From: Bulleidia sp. zg-1006
Lineage (GTDB): Bacteria; Bacillota_I; Bacilli_A; Erysipelotrichales; Erysipelotrichaceae
Assembly: GCF_016812035.1 (NCBI RefSeq)
Contig: NZ_CP069178.1
Location: forward strand, 496,001 to 560,000
DNA: 64,000 nucleotides
Reading direction: 5' to 3'
Position numbers and translations under genes: made by a program. Positions 4,204 to 50,553 of this stretch are shown here, in pieces; the stretch's first letter is position 1, and every line of letters starts with the position of its first letter. The notes beneath the pieces were generated by a model. It was given only the letters and a program-made list of their open reading frames with translations, was not told the origin of the DNA and did not search any database.

Positions 4204-4770
4204 CTAGATGACTAATGCGCCATCAACTTTTTTCATAGGATTTTTCTTGTCAATACGATCGTAGAATAAACGACCATCAAAGTGATCCAATTCATGTTGT
4301 AAAACAATCGCTAAATAGCCTCTTGCACGAATGGAAATCATCTTATCACTAGCTAAATCATAGGCTTCTACCGTTACTCTTGCTTTACGAACCACATAAC
4401 CCGGATGATCATTAACAACGGATAGGCAACCTTCTCCAGAACTTAAATAGGCCGGTTGAGCACTCTCGCTAACAATCTTAGCGTTGACTAACATATATTC
4501 ATAATGCACAAGCTCACCATTTTTATCGACATCATCGACAACAACTGCCATCATACGTTTCGGGACACCCACTTGAATAGCACTAATGCCAACCGCCGGT
4601 CTTAAATTGTATTTTTTCGCTTTTTCTTTATCCGTTGAATCTTTGACATATTGCAACATATCACGCAATAAAGAAGCATCTTTCTCACTTAAAGGAAGTT
4701 TCACTTTTTTTGATTTCGTTCGGATGATAGGATCACTATCTTTGACGATGGTATCATTATTAATCAACAT
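4204..4770 (-). CDS. def: Peptide deformylase
   Basis: Removes the N-formyl group from new proteins; cytoplasmic metalloenzyme. All three family motifs are present: VGISAIQVG at residues 60-68, EGCLS at 113-117 (metal ligand Cys115) and QHELDH at 158-163 (ligands His159 and His163, catalytic Glu160). The length of 188 and the internal insertions fit a type 2 Gram-positive deformylase. An AAAGG stretch lies upstream of the ATG. A -10 TACAAT with a TG extension (minus strand, 4792-4797) suggests it is first in an operon with RNase J. Confidence 0.95.
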   Translation of the reverse strand: MLINNDTIVKDSDPIIRTKSKKVKLPLSEKDASLLRDMLQYVKDSTDKEKAKKYNLRPAVGISAIQVGVPKRMMAVVVDDVDKNGELVHYEYMLVNAKIVSESAQPAYLSSGEGCLSVVNDHPGYVVRKARVTVEAYDLASDKMISIRARGYLAIVLQHELDHFDGRLFYDRIDKKNPMKKVDGALVI

Positions 4771-4837
4771 AAAAACCTTTACCTCAATTCCATTGTAGCA
4801 TTTAATTTATTTTATTAAATAAACGTAATTCTTTTCG

Positions 4838-4852
4838 TGCTACTATTATAAC
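4838..4852 (+). promoter_or_regulatory. Extended -10 promoter abutting the ftsW start
   Basis: A TG-C-TACTAT extended -10 element (4838-4846) lies six bases before the ftsW ATG at 4853, so the predicted +1 falls on or next to the start codon. No Shine-Dalgarno is visible, so the message may be leaderless. Confidence 0.45.
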
Positions 4853-6049
4853 ATGAGTATGAAAAAGAAAAGAAGAATGTTGCCATATTTTTATCGTGTT
4901 CCAAAAACGGTGGATTTTATCATTCATCTTTGCGTGATTGGTTTGATGATTTTTGGCTTAATTGCGATTGTATCAGCTTCTATGGGCTTGGTAAATGGTA
5001 ATAATAAAAAGTTAATTGGTATTGCCGGCAAACAGATTGTGTTTTTAATGGTTGGTTATATTTCTATGTGTTTTATGGGCAATCACTTTCGCCTTTCTTT
5101 TTTGAAAACAAAAGCGTTCAATACACTGATTATAACAACGATAGTATTATTGTTTGTACCTTTGGCTTTTAGTGCGGCGGGTGGAGCGAAAGCTTGGATT
5201 CGTCTGGGTCCTGTGACACTTCAACCATCGGAATTCGCAAAGATTGTAACGATTTTAATCATGGCTCGCTTTTTAGGAGATAATCGAAAAAGATACCATA
5301 GTACCTTTGAAATGTTATTAAGACCATTTGGCTATGTGTTAGCGATTTGCTTGATTGTGGCATTACTAGAGAATGACCTAGGATCGGCTTTGATTATCTT
5401 TATCATTTTTTCCGTTATTCTCTTGATTCCAAAACATCCGCAGTTAAAAGCAGTGCAACGCTTCTTTAAGATATCGTTTTGGTTAGGTATTGTGGCAGGA
5501 TATGGTTTGTTGTATACGGGCTTTGGGGAAAGAATTATTTCTTCGGTTATAACGGGATATAAGAAAGCTCGTTTTACAGCTATGTTTAATCCCTTCCATG
5601 ATACCTATGGGGTTGGTTATCAGATTATCAATGGTTTGGTTTCCTTTGCGACCGGCGGTTTAAAGGGTAGAGGGATTGGTCAATCGATTCGTAAATACAC
5701 CGACTTTCCAGCTGTTAATACTGATTTTATTCTAGCTGTTGTGGTTGAGGAAGTCGGGATGATCGGCTTTGGCTTTTTAATGCTATTATATGGGGCTATT
5801 CTATTGCAACTATTCCGCTATGCAATACGTATGAAGAGTGAAGCGGGAAAGATGATTTTAGTGGGTACAGCGATGTATCTATTGGTTCATATGGTCTTTA
5901 ATATTGGTGGAGCTACGGGATTAATTCCTTTGACGGGTGTTCCTTTATTGATGATTTCCGCAGGTGGTTCAAGTACATGGTCATTTATGACCTGTATCGG
6001 TATTTCACAAGCGATTATTTCACAAGTAAATAGAGGAGAAATCCAATGA
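4853..6049 (+). CDS. ftsW: FtsW/RodA/SpoVE-family SEDS glycosyltransferase
   Basis: Polytopic peptidoglycan polymerase of the SEDS family, working with class B penicillin-binding proteins at division or elongation sites. About ten hydrophobic segments follow a basic N-terminus. Characteristic blocks are GGAKAWIRLGPVTLQPSEFAK and the late loop with TGVPLLMISAGGSS. It heads the ftsW-rsmD-coaD-oxidoreductase operon and overlaps rsmD by 4 bases. FtsW, RodA and SpoVE are hard to tell apart by sequence; FtsW is the best guess. The start has no Shine-Dalgarno; an in-frame ATG at 4859 is an alternative. Confidence 0.9.
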   Translation: MSMKKKRRMLPYFYRVPKTVDFIIHLCVIGLMIFGLIAIVSASMGLVNGNNKKLIGIAGKQIVFLMVGYISMCFMGNHFRLSFLKTKAFNTLIITTIVLLFVPLAFSAAGGAKAWIRLGPVTLQPSEFAKIVTILIMARFLGDNRKRYHSTFEMLLRPFGYVLAICLIVALLENDLGSALIIFIIFSVILLIPKHPQLKAVQRFFKISFWLGIVAGYGLLYTGFGERIISSVITGYKKARFTAMFNPFHDTYGVGYQIINGLVSFATGGLKGRGIGQSIRKYTDFPAVNTDFILAVVVEEVGMIGFGFLMLLYGAILLQLFRYAIRMKSEAGKMILVGTAMYLLVHMVFNIGGATGLIPLTGVPLLMISAGGSSTWSFMTCIGISQAIISQVNRGEIQ

Positions 6050-6594
6050 GAATTATCGCTGGAGAATTTCGTTCAAGACCAATTGAAGCACCCAAAGGAA
6101 TGAAAACCAGACCAACGTTAGACAAAGTAAGAGAAGCGGTTTTTTCTATCATAATGAACAATGTTCCGGAATCTTCTTTTTTGGATTTGTATGCCGGAAG
6201 TGGAGCGAATGGCTTAGAAGCTTTATCAAGAGGAGCTAAAAGGGTTGTATTTGTCGAAAAAGACCGTCATGCGCAAAAAATTATTCAAGCCAATATTGTC
6301 TCATTATCTTTGCAAGAAAAAACAAGCTTATTGAAAATGTCAGTGCAACGGGCCTTAGATGTTTTAAAAGGTCAAAACTTTGATTTGGTGTATATGGATC
6401 CTCCTTATGCCAAGCAAGAAAATGAACAGGTCATTCAATTATTGATAGAAAAAGACTTATTAAACTTAGATGGTGTCATCGTGGTAGAGGCAGATCGAAA
6501 CGATGCTTATGCTGAAACAATAGGCAAAATGAAATTATGGAAAAAGAAAGAATATGGAGTTAGTCAACTCTTGTTTTATCGAAAGGAGAAATGA
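6046..6594 (+). CDS. rsmD: 16S rRNA (guanine966-N2)-methyltransferase
   Basis: SAM-dependent methyltransferase modifying G966 of 16S rRNA. The SAM-binding motif DLYAGSGANGLE is at residues 47-58 and the catalytic DPPY at 118-121. Length 182 is normal. Its ATG overlaps the ftsW stop (ATGA), and it is followed by coaD with an overlap; the rsmD-coaD pair is a common Firmicutes arrangement. Confidence 0.95.
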   Translation: MRIIAGEFRSRPIEAPKGMKTRPTLDKVREAVFSIIMNNVPESSFLDLYAGSGANGLEALSRGAKRVVFVEKDRHAQKIIQANIVSLSLQEKTSLLKMSVQRALDVLKGQNFDLVYMDPPYAKQENEQVIQLLIEKDLLNLDGVIVVEADRNDAYAETIGKMKLWKKKEYGVSQLLFYRKEK

Positions 6595-7094
6595 TGAAAG
6601 CTTGTTATCCAGGAACTTTTGATCCAATTACGAATGGTCATTTAGACATTATTGAAAGAGCGAGTAAGATGTTTGAAGAACTCGTGGTACTCATTATGGA
6701 TAATCCTCGTAAGAAATGTACCTTTAGTGTTGAAAAACGAAAAGAAATGATTGAAAAGAGTTTAGCGGATATAGGTCATCCCGTAAATGTTCGGGTAGAA
6801 ATTGGCTATGGTTTAACGGTGAATTACGCAAGGCGTTTAGGTTGTGGAGCGATTATTCGTGGTATTCGTGCAGTTTCGGATTATGAATATGAGTTGCAAC
6901 AAGCCACGGCTAATTTAAGCTTGGATGATGAAGTTGAAACATTATTCTTTATTGCTCGACCAGCCTATTCTTTCTTAAGTTCTTCCGTTTGTAAAGAAAT
7001 TGCGATGAATGGCGGAAAGCTTTATGGCTTTATTCCTTCCCCGATTATTCAAGAAGTGATGGATGAACTCTATATTCCAGTTGAGGAGCTTTGA
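6594..7094 (+). CDS. coaD: Phosphopantetheine adenylyltransferase
   Basis: Joins ATP and 4'-phosphopantetheine to form dephospho-CoA, the penultimate step of CoA synthesis. The nucleotidyltransferase motif GTFDPITNGH starts at residue 6, and the family's YSFLSSSVCKEIA block is near the C-terminus. Two adjacent ATGs exist at 6591 and 6594. The second is preferred because it lies 5 bases after AGGAG and gives the family-typical start MKACYPGTFDP. Confidence 0.95.
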   Translation: MKACYPGTFDPITNGHLDIIERASKMFEELVVLIMDNPRKKCTFSVEKRKEMIEKSLADIGHPVNVRVEIGYGLTVNYARRLGCGAIIRGIRAVSDYEYELQQATANLSLDDEVETLFFIARPAYSFLSSSVCKEIAMNGGKLYGFIPSPIIQEVMDELYIPVEEL

Positions 7095-8056
7095 TGAAGT
7101 GGGGGATTTTAGGCTCAGGGAATATTGCTAAGTGTTTTCTCACAGCAAAGGTCAATGAAGTTGTAGCGATAGCTGGTCGAAACAAAGAAAAATCGTTATC
7201 TTTGCAAAAAGAGTTTTCCATTCCTGTTGTCTATGATAGTTATGGTGAACTGATAAAAAGTGATGTGGATGCGGTGTATATTGCTTTACCACATGGGTTT
7301 CATTATAAATATGCTTTAGAGGCAATGGATGAAGGGAAAGCCGTTCTTATTGAAAAACCAATGGCTTTAAATGAATGGGAAGTGCAATCCCTAATTCTAA
7401 AGGCAAAGGAAAAGAATGTCTTGCTCATGGAAGCTATGAAAACTCGTTATTTTCCGGCTTATCAAGAATTAAAGAAAGCCTTAAAACAAGGTATTATTGG
7501 TGAACTACAATCCATACAAGTCTCTTTTTGTTCACAAGTAGAGACCTCTTTCTTTAAAAAATCTTATCTAAGTGATGCCATTCAAGGTGGAGTGCTTTTG
7601 GATGTGGGTTGTTATGTCTTGAATTATTTGGTGGATTTATTGGGGACCAATATTCCCTTAAAGAAAGTGGATGCTTGCTTTAAAGAAGAGGTGGATGTGG
7701 ACGTGTTAGCTATATTTGAAAGGAGTGGTGTTTCCTTTCAAATGGAACTCAGTCTTGAAAAACCATCTACTCGTTTCGCTATTCTTAAAGGAAATGAAGG
7801 AATGCTTGAAATACCGAATTTCCATCGCCCTAATCATTTCATTTTAAAAAAAGGCAAAGAAGAAAAGGTCTTTGAATACCTTTATGAGGGTAATGATTTA
7901 AGTGCTGAGATAAGAGCTTTTGAAAAAGCTTATGCCCTAGGTCTAAGGGAAGAAGCTTGTATGCCATGGTTAGTCAGCCAACAAATTGCTCATGAATTAG
8001 ACAGGGTGAAGGATGCTTTCACAGCCGATCCAGATGCTTCCGTTTATCGTATGTAA
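7094..8056 (+). CDS. Gfo/Idh/MocA-family NAD(P)-dependent oxidoreductase
   Basis: Cytoplasmic dehydrogenase of the glucose-fructose/inositol dehydrogenase family, substrate unknown. The N-terminal Rossmann motif is GILGSGNIA. The EKPMALN block carries the conserved Lys of the active site, and a C-terminal alpha/beta substrate domain follows. About 320 residues is typical. The ATG overlaps the coaD stop (TGATG), with GAGGAG upstream. It is the last gene of the ftsW operon and a terminator begins in its stop codon. Confidence 0.9.
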   Translation: MKWGILGSGNIAKCFLTAKVNEVVAIAGRNKEKSLSLQKEFSIPVVYDSYGELIKSDVDAVYIALPHGFHYKYALEAMDEGKAVLIEKPMALNEWEVQSLILKAKEKNVLLMEAMKTRYFPAYQELKKALKQGIIGELQSIQVSFCSQVETSFFKKSYLSDAIQGGVLLDVGCYVLNYLVDLLGTNIPLKKVDACFKEEVDVDVLAIFERSGVSFQMELSLEKPSTRFAILKGNEGMLEIPNFHRPNHFILKKGKEEKVFEYLYEGNDLSAEIRAFEKAYALGLREEACMPWLVSQQIAHELDRVKDAFTADPDASVYRM

Positions 8057-8083
8057 ACAGATTTCTAAGGAGGTCTGTTTTTG
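8055..8083 (+). terminator. Terminator of the ftsW-coaD operon
   Basis: Arms AAACAGA (8055-8061) and TCTGTTT (8074-8080) with a T run. The stem begins within the TAA stop codon of the oxidoreductase gene. Confidence 0.7.
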
Positions 8084-8274
8084 TTTGTGGGGAATCGTGA
8101 GTGAATTTTAAAATAAATGAGAAAAGATTGAAAAATGCGATTAGAAGAAATCTATCTCTTGGTCTCATTTTTGTTCTTCCAAAGGTCACTCATGTCTGAT
8201 GAAAAAATATTTAGAAAGTACATATCCACTTAGCATTCTAAAGGTATCTAATAGAATATCCTGCTTCTTTTAAA
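8084..8274. other. Intergenic stretch with no recognised gene
   Basis: AT-rich DNA between the core operon and the IS30-type relic. No ORF with a plausible start, RNA or repeat was recognised here. Confidence 0.5.
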
Positions 8275-8315
8275 GCAAAAATGAAAGAAATTAATCTTAG
8301 ACCTCGTAAATGCTT
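8275..8315 (+). mobile_element. IS30-family transposase relic, left copy of 41-bp repeat
   Basis: This 41-bp segment is identical to 13138-13178. It encodes residues of the type NLRPRKC, the hallmark near the C-terminus of IS30-family transposases (usually RPRKCLNWKTP). Here only the fragment remains, and the sequence diverges right after it at a TATAAT. Confidence 0.7.
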
Positions 8316-8342
8316 TTATAATATCCAGTAATATGGTAAAAT
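8314..8342 (+). promoter_or_regulatory. Predicted promoter of the seven-codon gene
   Basis: An extended -10 (TG-G-TAAAAT, 8334-8342) has a weak -35 TTTTAT 17 bases upstream. A perfect TATAAT also lies at 8317-8322. Start of transcription near 8349 would give a leader of about 19 bases before the small gene. Confidence 0.45.
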
Positions 8343-8367
8343 ATTCACATAAAGGGAAAGGTATACA

Positions 8368-8391
8368 ATGCTGGTTACTTGGGGAAACTAA
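8368..8391 (+). CDS. Seven-residue peptide, candidate RiPP precursor
   Basis: ATG followed by six sense codons and TAA gives MLVTWGN. It has an upstream promoter, an AAAGG Shine-Dalgarno at 8357-8361 (6 bases from the ATG), an in-frame stop just upstream so it cannot be longer, and a 14-bp terminator about 100 bases downstream. It precedes an ABC transporter, a radical SAM/SPASM enzyme and a TIM-barrel protein. Trp is a common target of SPASM-type radical enzymes, so it may be the precursor of a modified peptide. This is inference; the transcript could instead act as an RNA or a leader peptide. Confidence 0.4.
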   Translation: MLVTWGN

Positions 8392-8491
8392 TTTCACAAG
8401 AGTGTGGCTCTTGGAATCTTTAGCTTTCTATTTGGTAGTATATAATTATAATTACAAATCAGATGAGTTATGAGCTTTAGAAATTAGGATG

Positions 8492-8532
8492 ATTATTGGC
8501 AAAGCTTGTTATCAGGCTTTGCCAATAATTTT
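8492..8532 (+). terminator. Strong terminator after the seven-codon gene
   Basis: A perfect 14-bp stem (8492-8505 with 8516-8529), 10-base loop and TTTT. It separates the short gene from the transporter and enzyme genes, so the short transcript would be made in excess and the downstream genes depend on read-through. Confidence 0.8.
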
Positions 8533-8562
8533 AGTGTCCAAACTTAATTGTAGAAAAAATAA

Positions 8563-9297
8563 ATGGTATTAAAAATTATTAAAAATGAGCTAAAAAGAAG
8601 TTTTAAATATAAAGAAAAAATAATATTGAATTATTTTTTTATTATCATAATAGTTTATGCTGAATTTTCTGTTTATACGGGTCTTTTAAAAAATGAAGAG
8701 AGTAATCTGATGTCATATTTGGTGATTGCCAATGTCTTAAATAATTGCTTGCTTACAAATAGACTTCCAAATTTTATACATTTATTAAAAAAGGGAGAAA
8801 TATCCAAATATTATACTTTTCCAAAAGAAATATGGGAAATTATCGTACTTGAAGATATTGCAACTTGTATTGCTGGTTTTGCAGAGAACATATTATTTTT
8901 AATTTTGTTAATGATATTTTTGCAAATTTCATTTTTAAGATGTGCATTTTTTTTGGTATCTATTTTTTTGAGTTTATTGCTGAGTGTATTTGTGGGCGAA
9001 TGCTTCTACTCGTTATCTTTACCGTTAAATAATCACTCTGCTTCCAAAGCACTATTAAACGGTGTTAGTGGTATTTTATCTGGTGGAATCATACCCTTAA
9101 AATATTTGCCACAGCAATTTATAAAGATTTGTTATTTTACTCCATTTGCATTTTTGGTTGATGGACCAGTTCAAGTTTTATTATATGAAAAAAAAGAAAT
9201 TATTATTTTTCAACTAATTTGGTGTAGTGTGCTTGCGCTAATATCATACTATTTGTTTAGGATATTATCTAATAAAACTGAAATATATGGAGGATGA
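8563..9297 (+). CDS. ABC-2 type permease, subunit 1
   Basis: Hydrophobic protein of 244 residues with about six membrane segments, partner of the next permease and ATPase. The paired-permease layout is like DUF990-type (ABC-2) exporters, which move toxic compounds or peptides out. No clear Shine-Dalgarno precedes the ATG. It overlaps the second permease gene. Codon use is very AT-rich (many ATA, AGA and AAA codons) compared with the core genes, which fits acquired DNA. Confidence 0.75.
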   Translation: MVLKIIKNELKRSFKYKEKIILNYFFIIIIVYAEFSVYTGLLKNEESNLMSYLVIANVLNNCLLTNRLPNFIHLLKKGEISKYYTFPKEIWEIIVLEDIATCIAGFAENILFLILLMIFLQISFLRCAFFLVSIFLSLLLSVFVGECFYSLSLPLNNHSASKALLNGVSGILSGGIIPLKYLPQQFIKICYFTPFAFLVDGPVQVLLYEKKEIIIFQLIWCSVLALISYYLFRILSNKTEIYGG

Positions 9298-9299
9298 AA

Positions 9300-10067
9300 A
9301 TGAAAAAAACATTAATGTTGTACCGTGCAAGTCTAACTGGGCAGATAAGTTACAAAAAAAATATGATTCTGGAATTAGTGATTTGGTTTATTTATTCAAT
9401 AATTCCTTTAATTGCTGTCAATTTATTTTTGAAAGGAAGTGTTGCCAGCAATAATAATGTATCTATGCTGGTACATTTTATGTATGGTTCTATTTTGGTT
9501 GCTTATAATTTTGCTAGAATGTTTGCAAGAGGCTTAGATAATTATCAGCAATTATTATTTTCTGGAGATTTAGATATCTATTTTACAAGGCCACTATCGA
9601 TAATATATCAAGTTATAATTTCGGAAATATTTATCAGAAGAATTTCGGGTATCATTGTTGGAATAATATCTATATTAGAAAGCTATAGGCAAGGGTTTGA
9701 GTTATCTATTATAGCTACATTATATTTGATATTAATTTTGGGGATAACTTATATCGGGTTGATGTTAATTGCAGCATCTATATTAACTATAACGACAGAA
9801 GGGACAATGCTAGCTAGTATTTTAGTTGATTCAAGTGCTAATATAGGATTTTATCCAACTACATTATTAAAAAATCCAGCTAAATTTATATATACATTCA
9901 TCGTCCCAATTTATTTTTGTCTATATCTGCCAGTAGATTTGATTAGAAATAGTGATATTGTTTTTTTAGGGTATATATACCCATTTTTCACAATGGTATT
10001 AGTGAATCTAATGGGTATATGTATGTTTAATTATATGTTATTAAAATATCAAAGCAATAATAGGTAA
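9300..10067 (+). CDS. ABC-2 type (DUF990-like) permease, subunit 2
   Basis: About 255 residues with six predicted spans. The block GDLDIYFTRPLS matches the signature that DUF990/ABC-2 permeases show after the second span (G-LD-Y--RPL). Two in-frame ATGs lie at 9294 and 9300; 9300 is preferred because TGGAGG precedes it at 5-6 bases. It is followed after 67 bases by its ATPase. Confidence 0.8.
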   Translation: MKKTLMLYRASLTGQISYKKNMILELVIWFIYSIIPLIAVNLFLKGSVASNNNVSMLVHFMYGSILVAYNFARMFARGLDNYQQLLFSGDLDIYFTRPLSIIYQVIISEIFIRRISGIIVGIISILESYRQGFELSIIATLYLILILGITYIGLMLIAASILTITTEGTMLASILVDSSANIGFYPTTLLKNPAKFIYTFIVPIYFCLYLPVDLIRNSDIVFLGYIYPFFTMVLVNLMGICMFNYMLLKYQSNNR

Positions 10068-10134
10068 AAAGATGTAAAACAAATTTACTAAATATTCAAA
10101 TTTAGAGCTATAGATATTTTGTAATGGAGGAATT

Positions 10135-11037
10135 ATGATAAAACTAGAAAAAATTGTGTTCAACTATAAAGATAAAAAAAGATTATTTAATAATTTAGAT
10201 TTGATAATTAAAGATGGAGAAAGCATTGGAGTTGTGGGTAATAATGGAACAGGGAAGTCGACATTGATTAAATTGATGTTATCTATTTTAAGACCACAGC
10301 AAGGTGATATCTATTTTGGCGATAAAAGTGTTTATAAGTTCAGAAGGAAATTGATGAGTAAAATAGGAGTTGTTTGGGGACAGAGAAGTTCACTTTGGTG
10401 GGACTTATCCATTAGACGAAGTATAGAGATACTTTGTAAAATTTACGATGTCAATCCTGAAAAAATGGTTGAAAATTTAGAATATTATGGTGAAAAAGTT
10501 ACTTTGAAATATTATTGGAATAATTTGCTAAGAAAGGTAAGTTATGGGCAAAGAGTTCAAGCGGACATTATAGCGGTTTTAATAAGAGAACCAAAGTATA
10601 TCTTTTTAGATGAAGCGTTTATAGGGTTGGATTACCACACTAAAGAAACAATAATTGAATTATTATGTGATTATAAACAAACCCATCCGGATTGTATTTT
10701 GGTAATTACATCGCATAATTTTTTAGATATTACAAAATTGTGTGACCGATTACTGATTTTAAGAGAAGATGGTTCTGCCATTGAATATTTAACGAAGAAT
10801 GTATTATCTGTTAAATACACCGAACTTTTGATTGAATTTGATCGAGAAGTTGAACTTTTAGAATCGGAAAATATTGAAATCAATAAAATGAATTCACATA
10901 AGGTTAAAATATTAATTCAAGGTAGAATAAATAATTTTTTGCAGAAAATAAATTGGGACACAGTTTTGTCAATTGATTTAAAAGATAAAACTGTTGATAT
11001 GGTCATAAAAAAAATAGATAAAGGAGATTTACAATGA
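10135..11037 (+). CDS. ABC transporter ATP-binding protein
   Basis: ATPase of 300 residues for the two permeases. Walker A is GNNGTGKST, Q-loop region VWGQRSSLWWDL, signature VSYGQR, Walker B IFLDEAF and switch His in TSHNF. The VWGQRSSLWWDL stretch is typical of ATPases that partner DUF990 permeases. A C-terminal domain of about 80 residues follows the nucleotide-binding fold. GGAGG lies before the ATG, and its end overlaps the radical SAM gene by 4 bases, so export and modification are translationally coupled. Confidence 0.9.
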   Translation: MIKLEKIVFNYKDKKRLFNNLDLIIKDGESIGVVGNNGTGKSTLIKLMLSILRPQQGDIYFGDKSVYKFRRKLMSKIGVVWGQRSSLWWDLSIRRSIEILCKIYDVNPEKMVENLEYYGEKVTLKYYWNNLLRKVSYGQRVQADIIAVLIREPKYIFLDEAFIGLDYHTKETIIELLCDYKQTHPDCILVITSHNFLDITKLCDRLLILREDGSAIEYLTKNVLSVKYTELLIEFDREVELLESENIEINKMNSHKVKILIQGRINNFLQKINWDTVLSIDLKDKTVDMVIKKIDKGDLQ

Positions 11038-12240
11038 GTTTATTTACCTCGGTAAGATTAGAAATCACATCAAAATGCAATTTAAATTGCAAATATTGCC
11101 ATAATTTGGACTTTGCCAACAAAAACAATGATATGACAACGGAAAAAATTAAAGCATTACTTATCTCACTTAAAAAAGAATTAGGAGTTAATAAAGTGCT
11201 TTTGACTGGTGGAGAGCCACTACTTAACAGTGATGTTGTTGAAATTGTGCAACTTTTAACAGACTTAAAAATTAAATCGGATTTAGTTACAAATGGCAAA
11301 TTACTTACTGAAAAGATGATAAATAATCTTTCAAAAGCGGGCTTAAAAAGAATTAGGATAAGTATTGATGGTGTTGGTGATGAACATAATAAATATAGAA
11401 TAGGTAGTAATGTAGAAGAATTGTGGGAAAAGTGTAAATATATTAAAAATAATACTAAAATAAATACTGTTGTTCATACTGTTTCATCTATGCACAATGC
11501 AAACAAAATGTTCGACATATATAAAAAAATTCTTGAGGTTAAGGCGGACAGGTGGCGGATTTTTGATGTTGGATACGAGGGCGCTGCAAATCAAAATATA
11601 AAAGAGCTTGATGTTTCTACATATTATCATGAATTTATGGATCAAATGAGTCGAACACTTAGACACTATATAGAACATAGCCTTATCAATAAATTAGATA
11701 TAGAAGCAAATGGTGTTTTTAAAACAAATCTTTTAACAAAACCACCGATGCTAAATACATATGAAGAAAAAAACAAATATTTCAAAAAGATTTTAAATCT
11801 TTCTCCATGTGCTTATATTCAGCATCAGTCAACTATTAGAAGTGATGGAAAAGGAACACTTTGTCAATTTTTTTCATAATGTACTTTATGACTACCAGAA
11901 ATATAATTTTAATGTGAAAGAAACTTTAAATCATAAAAATTCTTTTGAAGAAAATGAAATACTTCTTAAAGATATCAAGCATTGTGAAAAATGTAAATAT
12001 GTTGTTGTATGCAATTCAGGTTGTAGAGCAAAGGCAAAATATTTGACGGGAAGCGTATACAATCCCGATCCTGTTTTTTGTGTGCTTTTACCTTTATTAT
12101 ACGAAAAAATTGTTCCTATTTTTCCAAATGATTCAAGAGACTCTTTTATTTCTTTTTTAAATCAAGATGGAGAATCTCCATTTTATAATTCAGAAGATCT
12201 TTCGAATTTGATTAAACAGAAAATAGGTAAATCTCTATGA
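11034..12240 (+). pseudogene. Radical SAM/SPASM peptide-modifying enzyme, frameshifted
   Basis: The cluster motif CNLNCKYC (Cys15, Cys19, Cys22) is followed by the GGEPLL and SIDGVG motifs of the radical SAM core. The SPASM domain begins with C-A-Y-I and DGKGTLC, then breaks: a T7 tract at about 11868-11874 puts the stop TAA at 11877. In the +1 frame the same domain continues through CEKCKYVVVCNSGC and DPVFC to 12240. Removing one T restores a 401-residue protein, the normal size of this class. The family makes C-C, thioether and epimer modifications on ribosomal peptides. The interruption could be a phase-variable tract, real decay or a homopolymer sequencing error. Its ATG overlaps the ATPase stop. 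Confidence 0.85.
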
Positions 12241-12959
12241 AATATGGATATGCATTGAAATTAGTTGTGGATGAAAATATAAGAGATGAAATGAATCAAT
12301 ATTTCTCAATGTATGATATTGTTGAAATTAAGGTTAAGAATAAACATTTGGATAATTACATTTTCATAAAACAAATTAACGAATTAATAAAAAAATATAA
12401 TGATAGAATTTCGTTGCATTTAGAAGCTGATTTGATTGAAAACTTTGAGCAAAGAAGTATATATTTTGATTGTATTTTAAAAAAAATAGAAAGAGTAGAT
12501 TTTTTGGTAACACACATTCAAAATAACACAGATGTAAGAGTGATTAACTCTATTTGTGATTTACTTCCAAATAATACAACTATTTTATTGGAAAACGAAA
12601 GTGGAGATGAACAGTTTATTGAAAAAATCAAAAATATAAAGAGTACTATATCAACTTTACATAAAGACAAAGTTAAAATATGTTTTGATTTAGGACATTG
12701 CAAAAAAGAATCTGAAATGCTCAAGACAATTGTAAGTGATAAAAACATGTTAAAAGACGTGGTGGAAATTCATATTCATTCTAATATTCCTAACGAACAT
12801 TCGAGACTGAAGAAAAATGATAAATTAATTTCTGAAATAGTTGGATTTATGAATGTTTGTGAAAATTTAAGAAGAGCGATATTCGAAATAAAAAAGATTG
12901 ATGTATTGAAATATGAAGGTATAGAACAGATAAAATTAATAGATGAAAAATATTCTTGA
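12237..12959 (+). CDS. TIM-barrel protein, sugar isomerase/AP endonuclease 2 fold
   Basis: About 240 residues with the features of the xylose-isomerase-like TIM barrel superfamily: ILLENE, ICFDLGHC, EIHIHSN and FEIK supply the expected Glu, His/Asp, His and Glu metal ligands. Its reaction is unknown. ATGA overlap with the radical SAM gene ties it to that pathway. TIM-barrel proteins act in some RiPP pathways (for example the DUF692 family MbnB), but this protein is not obviously of that family. It is the last gene before the right IS30 relic. Confidence 0.75.
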   Translation: MKYGYALKLVVDENIRDEMNQYFSMYDIVEIKVKNKHLDNYIFIKQINELIKKYNDRISLHLEADLIENFEQRSIYFDCILKKIERVDFLVTHIQNNTDVRVINSICDLLPNNTTILLENESGDEQFIEKIKNIKSTISTLHKDKVKICFDLGHCKKESEMLKTIVSDKNMLKDVVEIHIHSNIPNEHSRLKKNDKLISEIVGFMNVCENLRRAIFEIKKIDVLKYEGIEQIKLIDEKYS

Positions 12960-13042
12960 ATTTTAGGAAGTTGCTGTCATGTTGTGCGTATCTAAATGGA
13001 ATACCATAACAATTGATTTGTGACAAAAAAATATACAAGTTT

Positions 13043-13232
13043 ATGGGTGTTGTAAATTTGGAACTGGAGCGAGCAAAAAATCTTAAAACGATAACCCCAG
13101 ATAGAGGGAAAGGATTTTCTAAGCATACAATGATTAGGCAAAAATGAAAGAAATTAATCTTAGACCTCGTAAATGCTTAAATTGGAAACTCCATATGAGG
13201 TATATCATTCAGTTAAGTTGCAATTGATTTGA
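13043..13232 (+). mobile_element. IS30-family transposase relic, right side
   Basis: Translation gives a piece with KTITPDRGKGFSKHT, matching the ITPDRGKEF motif of the IS30 catalytic domain. In another frame NLRPRKCLNWK follows, then in a third frame TPYEVYHSVKLQL, the usual IS30 C-terminus. At least two frameshifts and an internal deletion make it non-functional. It contains the right copy of the 41-bp repeat (13138-13178). Confidence 0.75.
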
Positions 13233-13307
13233 CAATTCAAGGAGATTTTTAAATTTTTATGGATAAGACCTTATCCATAAGCTTATTATCTAAAGAATAT
13301 TCATTCC

Positions 13308-13958
13308 CTAATCAAATAAGGCAAAGATATTTTGGTAATTGTGGATACAAGCTTTGATATTTGGATGGTGAAGATTTCTTAATTGAGGGGAATCAATCGC
13401 AATCACATCGGCTCCTATTTCTAAGGCGGCTTTAATGCCATGGATAGAATCTTCAAAAACAAGTACTTTATCACTAACCTTTAAATTTTTCATGGCTTGT
13501 TGGTACATTTCTTTCTTATTCGCATAGCTACCATCATCGTAAATAATGCTTTTAGGATCCATCCATTGATCTAAGTGAAAATGCCGAATGTAAAAATCAA
13601 TATTATCCTTGATGGAAGCTGAAGCAATGGTAAAAGGAATATTCTTGTCTTTTAAATAATCCAATAATTCAGGCACACCATCCACTAGTTGAAAAGAAGA
13701 ATCAGCTTCAACATAGGAGCGATATAAAGCTTCTTTTTTCTTTGAAAGATTAGTGTATTCTTCATCACTATAGCGATTTCCCGTTAAGCCCTTTAATAAA
13801 TCAATGTTCGCTAGTCCCCAATACTTTGTTAGAATGGTTTCTAATGTAATAGGACCACAATTTAAGCTTTGTGAGATTGTATCCCAAGCCTTGACATGTA
13901 AATCCGTATCAAATAGTAAAGTTCCATTAAAATCAAAAATCACTGCATTATATTTCAT
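13308..13958 (-). CDS. HAD-superfamily hydrolase, beta-phosphoglucomutase-like
   Basis: Phosphatase or phosphomutase of HAD subfamily IA, 216 residues. Motif I is DFNGTL, with the nucleophile Asp but Asn where most members have the acid/base Asp. Motif II is Ser in TIASAS, and motifs III/IV lie in KVLVFEDSIHGIKAA. AAGGAG lies before the ATG. It is transcribed away from the hrcA operon. The substrate is unknown. Confidence 0.85.
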   Translation of the reverse strand: MKYNAVIFDFNGTLLFDTDLHVKAWDTISQSLNCGPITLETILTKYWGLANIDLLKGLTGNRYSDEEYTNLSKKKEALYRSYVEADSSFQLVDGVPELLDYLKDKNIPFTIASASIKDNIDFYIRHFHLDQWMDPKSIIYDDGSYANKKEMYQQAMKNLKVSDKVLVFEDSIHGIKAALEIGADVIAIDSPQLRNLHHPNIKACIHNYQNIFALFD

Positions 13959-29458: not shown

Positions 29459-31537
29459 ATGAAAAAAATTATACATTATTCGCAATTCGCAGAAAATGAA
29501 TGTGGCTTATGTTGTATTGCGATGATTTGTTCGTATTATGGATTTTATAATTCAATAGCGTACTATAGAAATTGTGCAAATGTTGGACGTGATGGACTTT
29601 CGCTTCTACAAATACATAATATTTTCGGGAAATTGGGATTTAATTGTAAAGTTTATCAAACCGAAAGAATTGATGAAGAAATGTTTACAAATGGACCACT
29701 CATTATACATTTAACAAGCAATCACTATGTAGTTATTTTAAAGCGACGGAAATTTATTTTTTTATTTGATCCGAATTCACATGAAAAGAAAAAAACCACT
29801 ATTGATTCTATAAATAAAAAATTCAGTGGCTATTATGTCGTTGCTAGTCCTATAAAGAGCGTAGAATATTTTATTAATGACCGCCCAAATATTTTTAAAA
29901 AATTACAAAAATATCTCAATGGTGCACAAAAAATCCTCAGTATTATCTTTTTTCTTTCTTTAATTTCATATCTTTTTTCTGTTTTCTTGCCAGTTCAAGT
30001 TAGCGTGATTTTAAATGCGCTAACAGATTTTGGCGTTGTTGAGAATATATTGACAAAAATAATATTTATATTTATTTTTATTTTAAGTTTTTTTGGCTTA
30101 TCACTTATTAGAAATGGATTATTAGTTAAATTGCAAATATATCTAATCAAAAAAATTAATAATGAAATTATAATGAAACTTATTAATATTAATTTTTCAT
30201 ATTATGATAATCGTAGCAAAGGAGATATTTTATATAGATTATCTTTATCAGATCATTTACAAAATGCGATTAGCTATAATTTTGTGAATTTCTTGTTAGC
30301 TTTTTCTAATTCCGTGGTTATTATGGCATATATTATTTTTATTTATCCAGTTATAATAAAAATTTTAATATTTATATGTCTTATTGTTATAGCAATTATA
30401 GCAATAATAATACATAATAAACTTTTAAAAACTCAAAAAGAATCTCAAAAGAAGAATTTGCAATTTAAGAATTCAGAAACAGATCTTGTTAATAATATGT
30501 ATCAAATTAGATGTGAAAACGTTCAAAATTATTATCAAAATAATTGTCAATTAACCCTAGAACAGTATATTGATTCATTTGAAAAAAATCAAAAAAATGT
30601 ACAATTTAGCAGTTTATATTTAAGCATGTTCTTTTCGTATATTCCATTTTTAATTGTTATTATTTATGCACTTTTGTTTAATCATCAGGTAGGTAGTATA
30701 TTTGTTTTATATTCAATAATTAACACCTTATTCTCACAGTCTTTTATGGCAGTTAGTGAAATAAATTCATTGAGCTTATTATCTGAAACATTTAATTATA
30801 TTGATGATATTATAGATGAAAAGGAAAATGACTATATAAAGGAAAAAAAGTCTGTAGCATTTAAATGTCTAAAACTAGAAAATATTTCGTTTAAGTATAA
30901 TGATAATGGTAGGGATGTGTTAAGTGGTTTTTCATTAGAAATTAACAAATCAGATTTTATTGCAATTGTGGGGGATAGTGGTTCAGGTAAAACAACAATT
31001 ATTAAATTGTTGACTCATCTATATGAACCAAGAACTGGAGCTATTCTAATAAATGGAGATGATTTAAAAAATAATAAAGTTTTTGATTATTCAGTTGCAA
31101 TACTTCCACAGTATCCTTTAACCATAAATGGTACTATAAAAGAGAATTTGGCTATGGATTTAAAAAACATAGAGGATGATGTTTTTTGGGAATGCTTGGC
31201 TGTAGCGCATTTGAAAGAAGAAGTGAATGAACTACCAATGAAATTGGATACAGTTGTTTCTAATTCTGGTACGAATTTTTCAGGCGGACAATTGCAGAGA
31301 CTCTCTTTGGCAAGAGAATTGGTAAAGAATCCGAACTTATTAATCTTTGATGAGGCATTATCCTCACTGGAGGAAGAGGAAGAGATTGCTATTTATGATT
31401 ATCTAAAGAAAATAGGAAAAACATTACTTGTTATTACGCATCGCAAGAACGTTTTGAAAAATTGCAATAAAATATGTGTCATGAACAATGGGAAACTGGA
31501 AAAGAAAGGAGCATATACAGAATTGTATGATAAATAG
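29459..31537 (+). CDS. lanT: LanT-like peptidase-containing ABC transporter (C39)
   Basis: Exporter that cuts a double-glycine leader and moves the peptide out. N-terminal C39 peptidase: Gln9 and the catalytic Cys15 in QFAENECG, His in SNHYVVI, Asp in FDPN. A membrane domain spans about residues 155-435, then an ATPase with GDSGSGKTT, SGGQLQR and LLIFDEALS. The fusion and length (692) match class II LanT. It lies upstream of LanM and the GG-type precursor. GGAG lies before the ATG. Confidence 0.92.
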   Translation: MKKIIHYSQFAENECGLCCIAMICSYYGFYNSIAYYRNCANVGRDGLSLLQIHNIFGKLGFNCKVYQTERIDEEMFTNGPLIIHLTSNHYVVILKRRKFIFLFDPNSHEKKKTTIDSINKKFSGYYVVASPIKSVEYFINDRPNIFKKLQKYLNGAQKILSIIFFLSLISYLFSVFLPVQVSVILNALTDFGVVENILTKIIFIFIFILSFFGLSLIRNGLLVKLQIYLIKKINNEIIMKLININFSYYDNRSKGDILYRLSLSDHLQNAISYNFVNFLLAFSNSVVIMAYIIFIYPVIIKILIFICLIVIAIIAIIIHNKLLKTQKESQKKNLQFKNSETDLVNNMYQIRCENVQNYYQNNCQLTLEQYIDSFEKNQKNVQFSSLYLSMFFSYIPFLIVIIYALLFNHQVGSIFVLYSIINTLFSQSFMAVSEINSLSLLSETFNYIDDIIDEKENDYIKEKKSVAFKCLKLENISFKYNDNGRDVLSGFSLEINKSDFIAIVGDSGSGKTTIIKLLTHLYEPRTGAILINGDDLKNNKVFDYSVAILPQYPLTINGTIKENLAMDLKNIEDDVFWECLAVAHLKEEVNELPMKLDTVVSNSGTNFSGGQLQRLSLARELVKNPNLLIFDEALSSLEEEEEIAIYDYLKKIGKTLLVITHRKNVLKNCNKICVMNNGKLEKKGAYTELYDK

Positions 31538-32288
31538 GGTGAAAGTTGTATCAATTATCGGAAGTTATAGAAATGCGAATTCTTATTCGAGACGAAGTGC
31601 AATATATTTTGGGAATGCCTTAAATCATTACGGTGAATGTATTAACGAAATATTACTTCCCAACGAGTTGCAGATAAATAATTGCATTGGATGCTGCAGA
31701 TGCTTTTCTAATGGAAAATGTTCTTTAACTGATGATATGAATATTGTTATTTCTAAAATGATGGCTTCTGATATCGTTATTTTCTCTGTGCCAGTTTATT
31801 TTCATCAAATATCTGGATACATGAAAACTCTAATTGATCGCCTAGCATTCTTAAGTCACATAATGTATTTTTTGGGGAAAATAGGTGTAGTAATAATTAA
31901 TACAGATAATAATGGATCTGCTGAAGCTGAGCACTATCTGAAAGAGGTTCAGGAGTATTTGGGCTTTTCATGCAAAAGTTGCTTTACCGTATATACAAAT
32001 AACTTAAGTGAAGAAGCACATCGCAGTATTATCAAACATGAAGTAATTAATTTAGTATATGAGCTACATGATGGAACTTTTGCAAGTGAATTGCAACATC
32101 AATTTTATAAGCTTCAAATGAATTCGATGAAAAATAGACCTAATCAAAATAACGAAAAAATCATGTGGCAAAATCTATTTTCCAATAAGGATGAAGTTGG
32201 TTGTGCTATTAAGTATAAAATGTCTGATAGTTTGAAAGAATGGATTCATAATTCATTCACTATATTTGAAAAAGACCAATTGTTTTGA
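31527..32288 (+). CDS. Flavodoxin-fold NAD(P)H/FMN oxidoreductase
   Basis: About 253 residues. The start VVSIIGSYRNANSYSRR is the FMN phosphate loop of the NADPH-dependent FMN reductase family. CIGCCRCFSNGKCSLTDDMN is the Cys-rich motif common in that family. VPVYFHQISGYMKTLIDR follows. The C-terminal part has no recognised domain. It overlaps the lanT end and precedes lanM; a role in reducing dehydroamino acids of the lanthipeptide is possible but only inferred. A GTG at 31539 is an alternative start. Confidence 0.8.
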   Translation: MINRVKVVSIIGSYRNANSYSRRSAIYFGNALNHYGECINEILLPNELQINNCIGCCRCFSNGKCSLTDDMNIVISKMMASDIVIFSVPVYFHQISGYMKTLIDRLAFLSHIMYFLGKIGVVIINTDNNGSAEAEHYLKEVQEYLGFSCKSCFTVYTNNLSEEAHRSIIKHEVINLVYELHDGTFASELQHQFYKLQMNSMKNRPNQNNEKIMWQNLFSNKDEVGCAIKYKMSDSLKEWIHNSFTIFEKDQLF

Positions 32289-32351
32289 GTGATTATAAAA
32301 CAGAAAATAAAACGTTTAAATTAAAGATAGAAGTCTGGAGGAAATGTAATA

Positions 32352-32609
32352 ATGAAAAAAAATAAAAGTGAATATTATCCCAAAGCGAAGGTATGCTTAT
32401 TAAATACTGGGAGATATAATCAAATTCCTGCAAAAGGTAACATTAAAAACGTATATGATGTTGTTTTTGATGTTGGTGATAAATTAATTGAAATATCAAT
32501 TAGTAAGTTCGAATATGATCAATTGAGTATTGGCGATTGTGGTGAATTAGAAATTAATAATAAAGAAATTATAAGATTTTCTAAAAAGATCTCAGCAATA
32601 AAGTCCTAG
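32352..32609 (+). CDS. Small protein of unknown function in the lanthipeptide locus
   Basis: 85 residues, no signal peptide, Lys-rich, with a beta-rich look (YDVVFDVGDKLIEISISKFEYDQL). Not recognised. TGGAGG lies about 10 bases before the ATG. It sits between the flavoprotein and lanM genes on the same strand; an immunity or accessory role is possible. Confidence 0.6.
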   Translation: MKKNKSEYYPKAKVCLLNTGRYNQIPAKGNIKNVYDVVFDVGDKLIEISISKFEYDQLSIGDCGELEINNKEIIRFSKKISAIKS

Positions 32610-32834
32610 CAAATAATTGATATGTATAAAAAATAGAGATATGTGATTGATGAAATAAGATATGTGAGTAAATTAAAAACTAGTTTTTAAACTGTAAGGA
32701 AATTAGTCAACATAAAGTGGTTAGTCTTAGTATTTTGATACTTAAATAAGCGTTTAATGTACTTAAAAAGTTAAATGGGTTAATATGTAAATAGTATATT
32801 TAGTCTGATAATAGTGTATTGAGATGGAGGGAGT
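32610..32834. other. Spacer with 18-bp perfect palindrome before lanM
   Basis: AT-rich gap without a gene. The palindrome TTAAAAACTAGTTTTTAA lies at 32673-32690 and may be a terminator-like stem or protein site. Confidence 0.5.
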
Positions 32835-35554
32835 ATGAACAAAACTAATTTACAGCCATTGATTGATGAAATAATAAAAAATAATTGTGAAAATGAATTA
32901 TTTGAATTAAATAAGTTTTTTTAGAAAATGATTTAAGTATCTTTAAGGATGTAAAAAAAGATATCAACGAAATGGTATACCAGATGATAGTTGAATGTGT
33001 TGTTGATATTTATCAAAGTAAAAGAGAGGTGTACAGAAAACAAGGGTATAATCACGCGGAAAGGATTAATTTTTTCTTTAAAGAAATGGAAGAAACATTC
33101 TTTTATGATGAATTTTCAGCAAAATATCCTGTATTAATAAATCTGATAAATATAAGATGCTTAGATTTTATTGAAGAAATAAAAGAGATCTGTAATTTTT
33201 TTTCTGAGGATTATAATCTTCTCACCGAAACATTACAAATTCCACCAGGAAAAATTAGGGCAATTAAGTGGACAGATGGAGATATTCATTGTGGAAGAAA
33301 TGTGATGATTGTTGAAACAACAAATTGTAAATTGGTATACAAGCCTAACAGTAATTCAAATTTTATACTTTTCTCATCTATTATTGATTTATATAATAAT
33401 ACAAAAGAAAAAAATTATTTAAAATACACGAAGTTTGTAAGTAAAAAAGATCATTTTTGGCAAGAGTATATTACCTTAAAAGTTTTTTCAGAATACGATA
33501 GTGTCAAAAAATACTATTATAAATGTGGAATATTTTTGGCTATTTTTTTGTTATTTGGAACATCTGATTTACATTATGAAAACTTAATAATTCATGATGA
33601 TAATCCATATTTTATTGATTTAGAAACTTTATGTAGAGCAGAGGTAAATAACATTTCGGAATCACAGAAATACCGTGATATTCAGTCAAGTGTAGTATTT
33701 TCTTCTATGTTACCTGTAATTGATCGCAGTAGTGGTTTTGATATTAACTTTAGTGCTTTATTTACGGGAAATATGACTTCTACAAAATTACAGAATTACC
33801 GTCTGGAGGAGGATGAAGAAAATGATTTCCTTTACAAGAAATACTTTGCTTCAGTAAGTAATAGAGCATCCGGTAACTTTTATAATGAAATTGAAATCTC
33901 TCCTGACGAAGTTGAAGAATACCTTTTACGTGGCTTTAATGATGGTGCTGAATTTATTCTTAATAATAAAAGTTATATTCTAGAAATATTAAAAGATCAT
34001 AAACTAAAATATGCGGAGAATCGTCTCATTTTACGTGCTACCCAAATATATGCAAAATTCATTTCTGCAGCTAGAACACCCGAAAATTTGAAATCATATA
34101 TCTCTTATAATAAAATTTTTTCGATTTTGGAAAGAAATTTCGTTGCGGGTAAAAATGGATATAGTCGATGTGAAGATGAAATACATAATTTAAAAAGAGG
34201 TTATATCCCTTATTACTATGTCAATTTGGGAGAAAAAACACTTTTTAGTAATAATATAAAATTGGAAAATTACCTAATAAAATCACCAATTGATTCTATT
34301 ATAGACAAAATGAACATATTTGATAAATCTTATATCGAGTACCAGAATTATTTAATTAAACTATCCCTTAGTACATGGTATAAATCAAATGATTATTTTG
34401 TATATAATCAAGTATCAAAAGATATCTATGACAATAATATGCTCTATGAAGAGATTGATGATTACTTTGAGAGATTAAAAAATTATATAATAGAGATAAA
34501 TGAGAGCGAATGTAATATTCCTATCTTAGAAGTTGCCGGTAACGATTTAAAAATAGGGCTAGTCAATCCTGGTTTATACAATGGTGGCGGGCTTATAATG
34601 CTTTTTTTACAATATGGAAATCACAACAAATATTATAAAAATATTGCAAGGAAATTATTAGAAAATATTTATTCAAACTATTTTCAACAGAAAGTTAATG
34701 ATAGTAATATAAAAGATTTTGGAATGTTTACAGGGATAGGTGGACTGGCTTATTTGGAATACAACGCATATGTCATATCTGGTAATATAATGCATTACCA
34801 TAGGTTTTCAGAAATAATTACTGATATTTTTAATTCTATAGAAAAAAAGGATATAGTTGATTTAACATATTTTTCGGGTCTTTCGGGTGTTATTCGATTT
34901 TTGAATAATTGTAAATTGTCTGAAGAACTTGTGAAAATAAAGAATAAATTAGAGAATAAATTAGAATCACAATATTTAAATGATGAAGGAACTATGAAAT
35001 CAGAATATGGATTATTACATGGTGAATTGGGAATATTATTAGAAGTTTTATCTATATCGAAAAATGCAACTGTAAGGATAAAAGCAAAAAAAGAACTTGC
35101 CTTAATTACTTCTAATTTAAATAAAGATAATAATAAATGGTGTTCGGGTCAATTTGGATTATTTTGTGTTATCTCTTTATTGATTGGTTCAAGAAAAATC
35201 GAGCAAAATTATGAGCATGTATTAAATGAAATCAGTAATTCTTTAAAGAAAATGGAAAATTATACCTTGTGTCATGGAATCGCCTCTGTTATTGATTGTG
35301 CAAATAATAAGCTAGTCAAACAGTCACTAAAGCAAGTGAATTATCATACACCATCGCTTTTGTCTCCGAACGTAATCAACTGGGATAATTATAATTTCCG
35401 TTGCGACATATCTTTTATGTTAGGAGAATCCGGATATATTTATGCGTGCTTATCAAAAAAATATAATAATTTTCCATCCGTTCTTCTATTGGATGTTAAT
35501 TGCATTGAAGCATTTGATAATAGTGAAGTACTGTCATCCACAGTTTCTGGATAA
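32835..35554 (+). pseudogene. lanM: Class II lanthipeptide synthetase LanM, frameshifted near the N-terminus
   Basis: GGAGGG precedes ATG 32835. The frame runs for 29 codons to a TAG directly after a T7 tract (about 32916-32923). One added T, or a -1 slip at TTT-TAG, joins it to the long frame ending at 35554, giving about 906 residues. The dehydratase domain has GDIHCGRNVMI, KLVYKP and GTSDLHYENLI with IDLETL. The LanC-like cyclase has GMFTGIGG and zinc ligands in WCSGQFG and LCHG. The enzyme dehydrates Ser/Thr and forms lanthionine rings. The last 17 or so residues may read into foreign DNA. Phase variation, decay and sequencing error all remain possible. Confidence 0.88.
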
Positions 35555-36176
35555 CGGCGCAAATTCATTGTTAGCATAAATTGAATAATTGATTCCTCAT
35601 ATAGGTAACAGTCAAAATATCCGCGTCCGATGAATCCAAAAGCGACCGCTGTGACATCTCTTTCTTTAACATTTCGCAATATGCAGAGTGTCGGCGATAA
35701 TTTTCGTACAGTGGCTATGCCCCTGTCATACTTTTAGCTTCGCATGCGGAAATTTCTTGGGCAAAATCCGTTTTACCCCCTTTAAGTAAACTTCTTTCGA
35801 ATCATATAGGAATAAACATTTTTGTTACTCTTCTTGCTGTCGATAAGTGCTTCTCATAATTTATGATATGAAGCATCTGTGCTGTTCTCTATCTGAATGA
35901 ACCTGCGTTATATTCTTGCTTGTGCTCATCCTCAAGGAAACATTTCAAGGTTTGCAATATTCTTTTACCTACCACTTTATAATAATTCTTAAATGGCTAT
36001 GGACAAATAGAAGTAATGAATTAAAATATAGTTGAAGATGAGAAGTACTTTAATGTGATACGCAATAGACAAAAATACAGAGAAATATAATCTTACTGTA
36101 TAAAATAAGTTTTGATTGCGATTTATTAGGAATTTCACTGATTATAAATAGAAGTATCGCTAGAAAGGAGGATTTT
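35555..36176. other. Decayed tract between lanM and the precursor gene
   Basis: About 620 bases. The first 200 are richer in G and C than their surroundings and read partly open on the minus strand in two different frames, which looks like a decayed gene from a mobile element. No known family was recognised and no intact gene is seen. Confidence 0.5.
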
Positions 36177-36353
36177 ATGGAAAAAGTTATGAGTCGAGAA
36201 GTTGATTTAGATGAACTTGAATCTTTAGCTCTCGTTGGTGGCAATGATGGTGGAACAGTAAATCCACAGTCGTTTAAAGTTACTATTATTACCATTCTAG
36301 TTACTTGTTTATCAATTACTCAAACTGCCTCAGCAAAAGAAATTTGTGGTTAA
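36177..36353 (+). CDS. lanA: Class II lanthipeptide precursor (LanA)
   Basis: 58 residues. The leader is acidic (REVDLDELESLALVGG) and ends in GG at 21-22, the C39/LanT cleavage site. The 36-residue core has Thr at 27, 36, 39, 43, 48 and 50, Ser at 32, 46 and 52, and two Cys at 44 and 57, enough for two (methyl)lanthionine rings. AAAGGAGG lies 6 bases before the ATG and a strong terminator follows. It lies 620 bases from lanM, past a decayed tract. The core sequence did not match a lantibiotic I know. Confidence 0.85.
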   Translation: MEKVMSREVDLDELESLALVGGNDGGTVNPQSFKVTIITILVTCLSITQTASAKEICG

Positions 36354-36354
36354 C

Positions 36355-36399
36355 AAAAATTAGAGAGGGGGAGAAAGAGTTTCCTCCTCTCTAATTTTT
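36355..36399 (+). terminator. Terminator after the lanthipeptide precursor
   Basis: Perfect 14-bp outer stem (36355-36368 with 36386-36399) with additional inner pairing; ends in a T run. Confidence 0.85.
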
Positions 36400-36497
36400 G
36401 AACGTAATATATTTAACTGATTTCTTGGCGCTTAATGTACATTGTCTAATTAAATTTTTTTTCACTTTATCATAAAATTTTAAAAGGGGTTGATTGT

Positions 36498-39703: not shown

Positions 39704-39752
39704 TGTTTTTTTTATTTGAATAGAAAAGAAGATAAAAGGCAAAATTTATTAA

Positions 39753-50257: not shown

Positions 50258-50553
50258 AATGTACTACTAAACAAAGATTTTTTTGGAAAAAGCCATATAT
50301 GGATACCTTAATGCAAAGCCAATGGTGTGAAAAGGATGTGGATATGGAATGTGAAAATTGTCCGTATTTATTTTTATGCAATGGAGGTTGTGCCTATAAT
50401 GCTTTTATCCAAGGCACTAAAAAGGAATGTAATAAAGAGTATTTGAGCGTTGCTATGGATAGATTGATTTTAGCGATGGGAAACTATTTGGAAAAAAAGG
50501 GGAACTTGTCGAATGGAATATTTGAAATTAGAACGTTGTTCCAAGAGGTTTGA
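50248..50553 (+). pseudogene. C-terminal relic of a radical SAM/SPASM enzyme
   Basis: About 100 residues holding the end of a SPASM domain: CENCPYLFLCNGGC with a further Cys downstream. The radical SAM core is absent and there is no proper start. It lies directly before a truncated ABC ATPase, so an older modified-peptide locus was probably deleted here. Confidence 0.75.

Follow-up and report, generated by a model that had tools for sequence, protein, structure and literature searches.

A radical SAM/SPASM, TIM-barrel and ABC-2 exporter cassette between IS30 relics in Bulleidia sp. zg-1006, preceded by a seven-codon ORF and a strong hairpin

We analysed a window of 64,000 nucleotides from Bulleidia sp. 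zg-1006 (contig NZ_CP069178.1, positions 496001-560000 of a single-contig genome of 1.545 Mb), in which an AT-rich block holds five genes that share one direction: two ABC-2 (ATP-binding cassette type 2) permeases, an ABC transporter ATPase, a radical SAM (S-adenosylmethionine)/SPASM enzyme and a xylose-isomerase-like TIM barrel (Table 1). The explanation that we favour, with about even confidence, is a horizontally acquired, possibly decayed operon that came by IS30 elements or was left beside them and that would make and export a small product modified by radical SAM chemistry. Upstream of the operon is a seven-codon open reading frame (ORF), MLVTWGN, which an earlier note on the sequence had suggested as the peptide substrate of the enzymes. 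We consider this ORF more likely regulatory or fortuitous than a substrate.

Results and discussion

Gene content and operon layout

The block has 27.1% G+C, against 37.5% on its left side and 34.0% on its right. Its left neighbor is a Gfo/Idh-type oxidoreductase gene (7091-8056), and its right neighbor, on the minus strand, is a HAD-like gene (13308-13958). Three of the junctions between the five genes are 4-base ATGA overlaps. The earlier note had pointed out two of these (ATPase/radical SAM and radical SAM/TIM barrel), and there is a third, which it did not mention, between permease 1 and permease 2. The only gap is one of 67 bp between permease 2 and the ATPase.

Pfam and NCBIfam domains, together with the gene order, bear out the gene set that the note had proposed. 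The exporter set is complete, with two permeases and an ATPase, although permease 1 is borderline for PF01061. The note had called the transporter DUF990-like, and permease 2 is well above the cut-off for ABC2_membrane_6, which we take to be the family formerly named DUF990. A Pfam scan of six reading frames found no peptidase, in agreement with the note, and no RRE-like domain (RRE, recognition element of ribosomally synthesized and post-translationally modified peptides, RiPPs) or PqqD-type match, although distant RREs might escape Pfam. An RRE domain or partner is common, though not universal, in RiPP clusters. With Rfam, nothing in the region reached a gathering score, and three snoRNA matches were due to chance.

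Table 1. Features of the cassette and its flanks (window coordinates)
Feature	Position	Strand	Evidence or remarks
IS30 transposase relic, 46 bp from inside the 3' part of the gene	8270-8315	+	42/46 identical to an intact IS30 gene (L059)
Promoter-like site, TTTATA-16-TAAAAT, TG ahead of the second hexamer	8315-8342	+	9/12 matches
Seven-codon ORF MLVTWGN (leader peptide, chance ORF or precursor)	8368-8391	+	Shine-Dalgarno AAAGGGAAAGG
Hairpin (attenuator, leaky terminator or processing site)	8491-8530	+	18 contiguous pairs, -25.6 kcal/mol
ABC-2 type permease 1	8563-9297	+	244 residues; PF01061 24.1 bits, slightly under the cut-off of 26.9
ABC-2 type permease 2	9294-10067	+	257 residues; PF06182 ABC2_membrane_6, 48.7 bits against a cut-off of 22
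ABC transporter ATPase	10135-11037	+	300 residues; PF00005, 77.2 bits
Radical SAM core of the radical SAM/SPASM enzyme	11034-11879	+	281 residues; PF04055; CNLNCKYC; frame stops early
SPASM half of the radical SAM protein	11809-12240	+	Other frame; TIGR04085 above cut-off
T7 run, site of the frame change	11868-11874	+	Core and SPASM frames meet here
Xylose-isomerase-like TIM barrel	12237-12959	+	240 residues
IS30 transposase relic, 3' end of the gene with an internal deletion of about 130 bp	13086-13242	+	DNA matches

Radical SAM/SPASM enzyme. The note had read one enzyme here. Both of its domains are present and above their domain cut-offs, but they do not form a single ORF: the frame with the PF04055 core ends at a stop codon at 11877-11879, and the SPASM domain (TIGR04085, 30.5 bits against a cut-off of 27) occupies a different frame, which is open from 11797 to 12240. 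If the frame change is read through, the resulting protein of 401 residues is collinear with full-length SPASM models (ScmE 6-350, NirJ1 7-347, WgkB 7-345). This protein falls far below the cut-offs of all of the SPASM models and so belongs to no named subfamily. The frame change may be a sequencing error, a mutation or recoding. We rejected a systematic homopolymer error because 13 other runs of 7-8 bases within the cassette genes leave the frame intact, although one isolated error could still account for it. We also tried programmed frameshifting, for which there was no comparative support. As the gene is split in the sequence, this copy of the enzyme may be inactive. A viperin identity was rejected as well, because viperin models match at 88.8 bits against an NCBIfam cut-off of 180 and the enzyme has a SPASM half. 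For the radical SAM half, a single-sequence structure model was of poor quality (predicted local distance difference test score, pLDDT, of 47), and we did not use it.

TIM barrel. Pfam gave AP_endonuc_2, slightly under its cut-off, and NCBIfam gave a weak CbiR match. An AlphaFold2 model built from a three-sequence alignment has eight alternating strands (mean pLDDT 68, predicted template modelling score, pTM, 0.71), and Foldseek matched it best, among solved structures, to a D-tagatose 3-epimerase-like protein and then to IolI. Seven residues (H61, H93, E119, D151, H154, H179 and H188) are invariant across this protein and two distant homologues. They are presumably metal ligands, as in the Endo IV/xylose isomerase superfamily, and on this basis the TIM barrel is probably an active metal enzyme. 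The predicted eight-stranded barrel and the His, Glu and Asp residues at the metal positions place it among the xylose-isomerase-like proteins of the AP_endonuc_2 superfamily. There was no match to DUF692 (the multinuclear non-heme iron-dependent oxidative enzymes, MNIO), as Pfam at E-values up to 1 returned AP_endonuc_2 and one chance match.

IS30 relics and the origin of the cassette

The cassette is flanked on both sides by IS30 transposase relics in the same orientation, with no intact transposase. We identified the relics from DNA matches, as Pfam found nothing on such short pieces. The downstream relic matches plasmid elements of the IS30/ISApl1 type and the intact IS30 of a relative (G060, L059), with 89% identity over 113 bp. 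Within the relics is a perfect direct repeat of 41 bp (8275-8315 and 13138-13178) that occurs nowhere else in the genome and is part of the transposase gene; the upstream piece reaches 5 bp further left than the repeat. The two copies are identical to each other, yet 4 positions set both apart from the intact IS30 of G060, and the edges of the copies differ. The sequences thus point to a recent common source for the two copies.

The IS30 relics, the base composition and the absence of the cassette from 316 genomes of the order together argue for horizontal acquisition. The relics alone do not imply present mobility. We looked for an empty site in relatives, where the flanking genes had only distant paralogues (37% identity or less).

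Search for related loci

For the TIM barrel, searches of the relatives, the phylum, the order (316 genomes), one small order and a second class gave no orthologue, and neither did searches of viral contig, phage and plasmid collections. Altogether, about 1,100 genomes, plasmids, phages and viral contigs held no orthologues of the enzymes. Systematic sampling left out Lactobacillales, Clostridia and other large groups, so the absence is limited to the groups searched. A pattern scan of 85,000 species, which reaches only sequences with the chosen motifs, also found no orthologue and returned only generic AP_endonuc_2 proteins, one within a sugar-ABC operon (L021) and one amid unrelated genes (L022). 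In some of the orthologue searches, made-up alignment rows (A1-A5) served to steer the patterns to motifs that we judged conserved, and these rows are not data.

For the radical SAM half, searches of the phylum and the class gave only partial matches at about 27-41% identity. None of these lies beside a matching operon, and there was no such operon around 16 weak matches. One contig (L035) has a loosely similar neighborhood with two radical SAM proteins and a TIM barrel, with just 27% identity over 99 residues. The genes at 4474-10951 of that contig (minus strand) encode sugar-kinase-like and glutamine-synthetase-like proteins, two radical SAM/SPASM proteins, an HprK-related kinase-like protein, an Endo IV/CbiR-like TIM barrel and a small protein, none of which scores at a curated family cut-off. 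The note's description of a candidate unfamiliar radical SAM cassette therefore holds, in that no catalogued family and no relative that we reached matches the set.

The seven-codon ORF

The ORF that the note had called a seven-codon gene exists, and its ribosome-binding site (-7.5 kcal/mol) is better than any other in the leader and on par with the sites of the neighboring genes. However, it is close to what chance would give: when the leader (247 bp) was shuffled 500 times with its dinucleotides kept, 47 of the shuffles (about 9%) had an ATG mini-ORF whose Shine-Dalgarno sequence was at least as good, and the count rose to 91 of 500 when GTG and TTG starts were included. The ORF is thus not clearly above chance. 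Nor did we find positive support for the note's suggestion that the peptide is the substrate, as there is also no RRE, leader or protease beside this near-chance ORF.

Chance alone would give about three ATG mini-ORFs in a stretch of this kind. There are two others. One of 27 residues, MIIGKACYQALPIILVSKLNCRKNKWY (8489-8572), is encoded by the hairpin and overlaps the start of permease 1 by 10 nt. Another of 14 residues, MLCVSKWNTITIDL (12979-13023), is directly behind the TIM-barrel gene and has a fair Shine-Dalgarno sequence (-4.8 kcal/mol).

Promoter and hairpin

The note had also given the seven-codon gene its own promoter and terminator. The promoter does not stand out from chance, since sites of its 9/12 grade number 33 in the region against 37.9 expected from shuffles. 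The hairpin taken as the terminator is exceptional, and no shuffle reached the folding energy of the leader (z about -5). However, it begins 99 nt past the stop codon of MLVTWGN, has no clear U-tract and was not called by a terminator scan. It ends 32 nt ahead of permease 1, which has no Shine-Dalgarno sequence of its own, and for these reasons transcription most likely enters from upstream and passes through the hairpin.

Such a read-through layout fits a precursor gene with a leaky terminator behind it, and it fits an attenuator that has an upstream ORF (uORF) just as well. Ribosome-mediated attenuators follow this second plan. In bmrB, which lies ahead of the ABC transporter genes bmrCD, a short ORF and a hairpin make up a ribosome-mediated attenuator (PMC4191407), and uORFs of 3 and 9 codons ahead of a hairpin are documented for are5sc and tiaA (PMC12421871). 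All three are like the present leader in the order of short ORF, hairpin and regulated gene, and bmrCD is like it also in encoding an ABC transporter. Unlike them, the leader here has no good U-tract and no clear antiterminator, and the operon downstream looks biosynthetic. As a short ORF with a hairpin is the plan of an attenuator too, a leader peptide seems, by analogy, at least as likely as a precursor for MLVTWGN.

Proposed explanation and alternatives

In the explanation that we favour, the operon would have arrived by IS30 elements or would remain beside them. The radical SAM/SPASM enzyme would perform a radical modification, and the metal-dependent TIM barrel would then carry out a second step with isomerisation, epimerisation, lyase or hydrolase chemistry. 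The two-permease ABC-2 exporter would secrete the product or protect the producer. The transcript would start upstream of the hairpin and read through it, and the short ORF would be a leader peptide whose translation tunes this read-through, or a chance ORF, and not an established precursor. Several observations weigh against this explanation. Two enzymes are few for a pathway without a peptide substrate, and the mini-ORF has a good Shine-Dalgarno sequence. The hairpin has no good U-tract, and folding with the ORF masked gave no convincing antiterminator and no strong alternative for the 5' arm of the hairpin, so attenuation is a proposal. Our searches also found no related locus that could serve for a comparative test of the short ORF.

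The enzymes might instead act on a non-peptide small molecule of primary metabolism, such as a sugar or a nucleoside, with the mini-ORF as a functionless chance ORF. We regard this as unlikely, though it deserves to be taken seriously. The fold neighbors of the TIM barrel are sugar epimerases and isomerases, the sequence relatives of the radical SAM enzyme include the non-peptide enzymes MoaA, cytosylglucuronate decarboxylase and BtrN, and the mini-ORF is not above chance. However, the small number of enzymes counts here too, as the operon has no transferase, kinase or ligase, and the strong hairpin would be left unexplained.

It is quite improbable, in our judgment, that MLVTWGN is a leaderless precursor on which the radical SAM enzyme and the TIM barrel act before the ABC-2 transporter exports it, with the hairpin keeping transcripts of the peptide more abundant than those of the enzymes. 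Its Shine-Dalgarno sequence, the order of precursor, hairpin and enzymes that is usual for RiPPs, and the same WG pair in the mature seven-mer tryglysin B, VNCWGKH (PMC8092268), all speak for it, and precursors of five codons are known for the cytochrome P450 biarylitides (PMC12951456). But the ORF is near chance, neither an RRE nor a leader or a peptidase came up with Pfam, the maturase gene has a frameshift in this sequence and comparative support is lacking. For tryglysin itself, a prepeptide of 21 residues, an RRE protein and a Lys are required (PMC8092268), and MLVTWGN has no Lys. Least probable of all is that the precursor is a different short peptide, such as the product of the 27-residue or of the 14-residue ORF. 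Both ORFs exist, the first could couple translation to permease 1 with its missing Shine-Dalgarno sequence, and the second has a fair one. Against this, initiation signals are weak, the number of mini-ORFs is that expected by chance, and pairing in the hairpin accounts for the sequence of the 27-residue ORF.

Other clusters in the window

A class II lanthipeptide-type cluster is present at 29459-37082. It encodes an ABC transporter with a C39 peptidase (29459-31537), an FMN-reductase-like protein (31488-32288), a LanM with DUF4135 and LANC_like domains (32972-35554), a possible precursor of the double-Gly type that starts MEKVMSREVDLDELESLALVGGNDGG (36177-36353) and a DUF3267 protein (36498-37082). 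At 37653-40106 on the minus strand, an ABC ATPase and two membrane proteins are beside a secreted-looking protein of 117 residues (39753-40106), which by eye resembles bacteriocins of the lactococcin-972 type and has no Pfam match. An ORF of 101 residues (50248-50553) resembles the SPASM end of a radical SAM protein (CENCPYLFLCNGGC), lacks the core and has no Pfam match; it is possibly a gene remnant.

Comparison with known systems

One close likeness is to the streptococcal radical SAM RiPP operons for tryglysin (wgkABCD) and streptide (PMC8092268, PMC13361665), which are also short and combine a radical SAM/SPASM enzyme with a transporter. Their mature products have 7 to 9 residues, and there is a W-G pair in a small peptide, as in MLVTWGN. 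Unlike these operons, the cassette shows neither an RRE protein nor a prepeptide with a leader, nor an Rgg regulator; a Lys that could form a Lys-Trp link is missing too, and a TIM barrel is present instead. It also falls outside the tryglysin (WGK) class, as the WgkB model scores 82.3 bits against a cut-off of 650, there is no RRE match and the peptide has WGN rather than WGK. MNIO (DUF692) RiPP clusters with a radical SAM enzyme, such as pbs (PMC12257519), differ in that their radical SAM enzyme is B12-dependent, whereas the TIM barrel here is AP_endonuc_2 and not DUF692 by Pfam and has no RRE partner. Even on the likelier reading, the locus is a set of radical SAM enzyme, epimerase-like TIM barrel and ABC-2 exporter without a catalogued family.

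AT-rich leaders often contain mini-ORFs with good ribosome-binding sites, and a short ORF with a hairpin behind it points just as well to an attenuator; one locus is therefore not enough for naming a precursor. The biarylitides (PMC12951456) do set a precedent for an extremely short precursor gene, of five codons, although their chemistry is that of a P450 and not of a radical SAM enzyme, and MLVTWGN as a precursor is a candidate only. If the peptide reading were true, RiPP precursors of fewer than 10 codons would exist beyond the P450 systems and would have been overlooked by gene finders.

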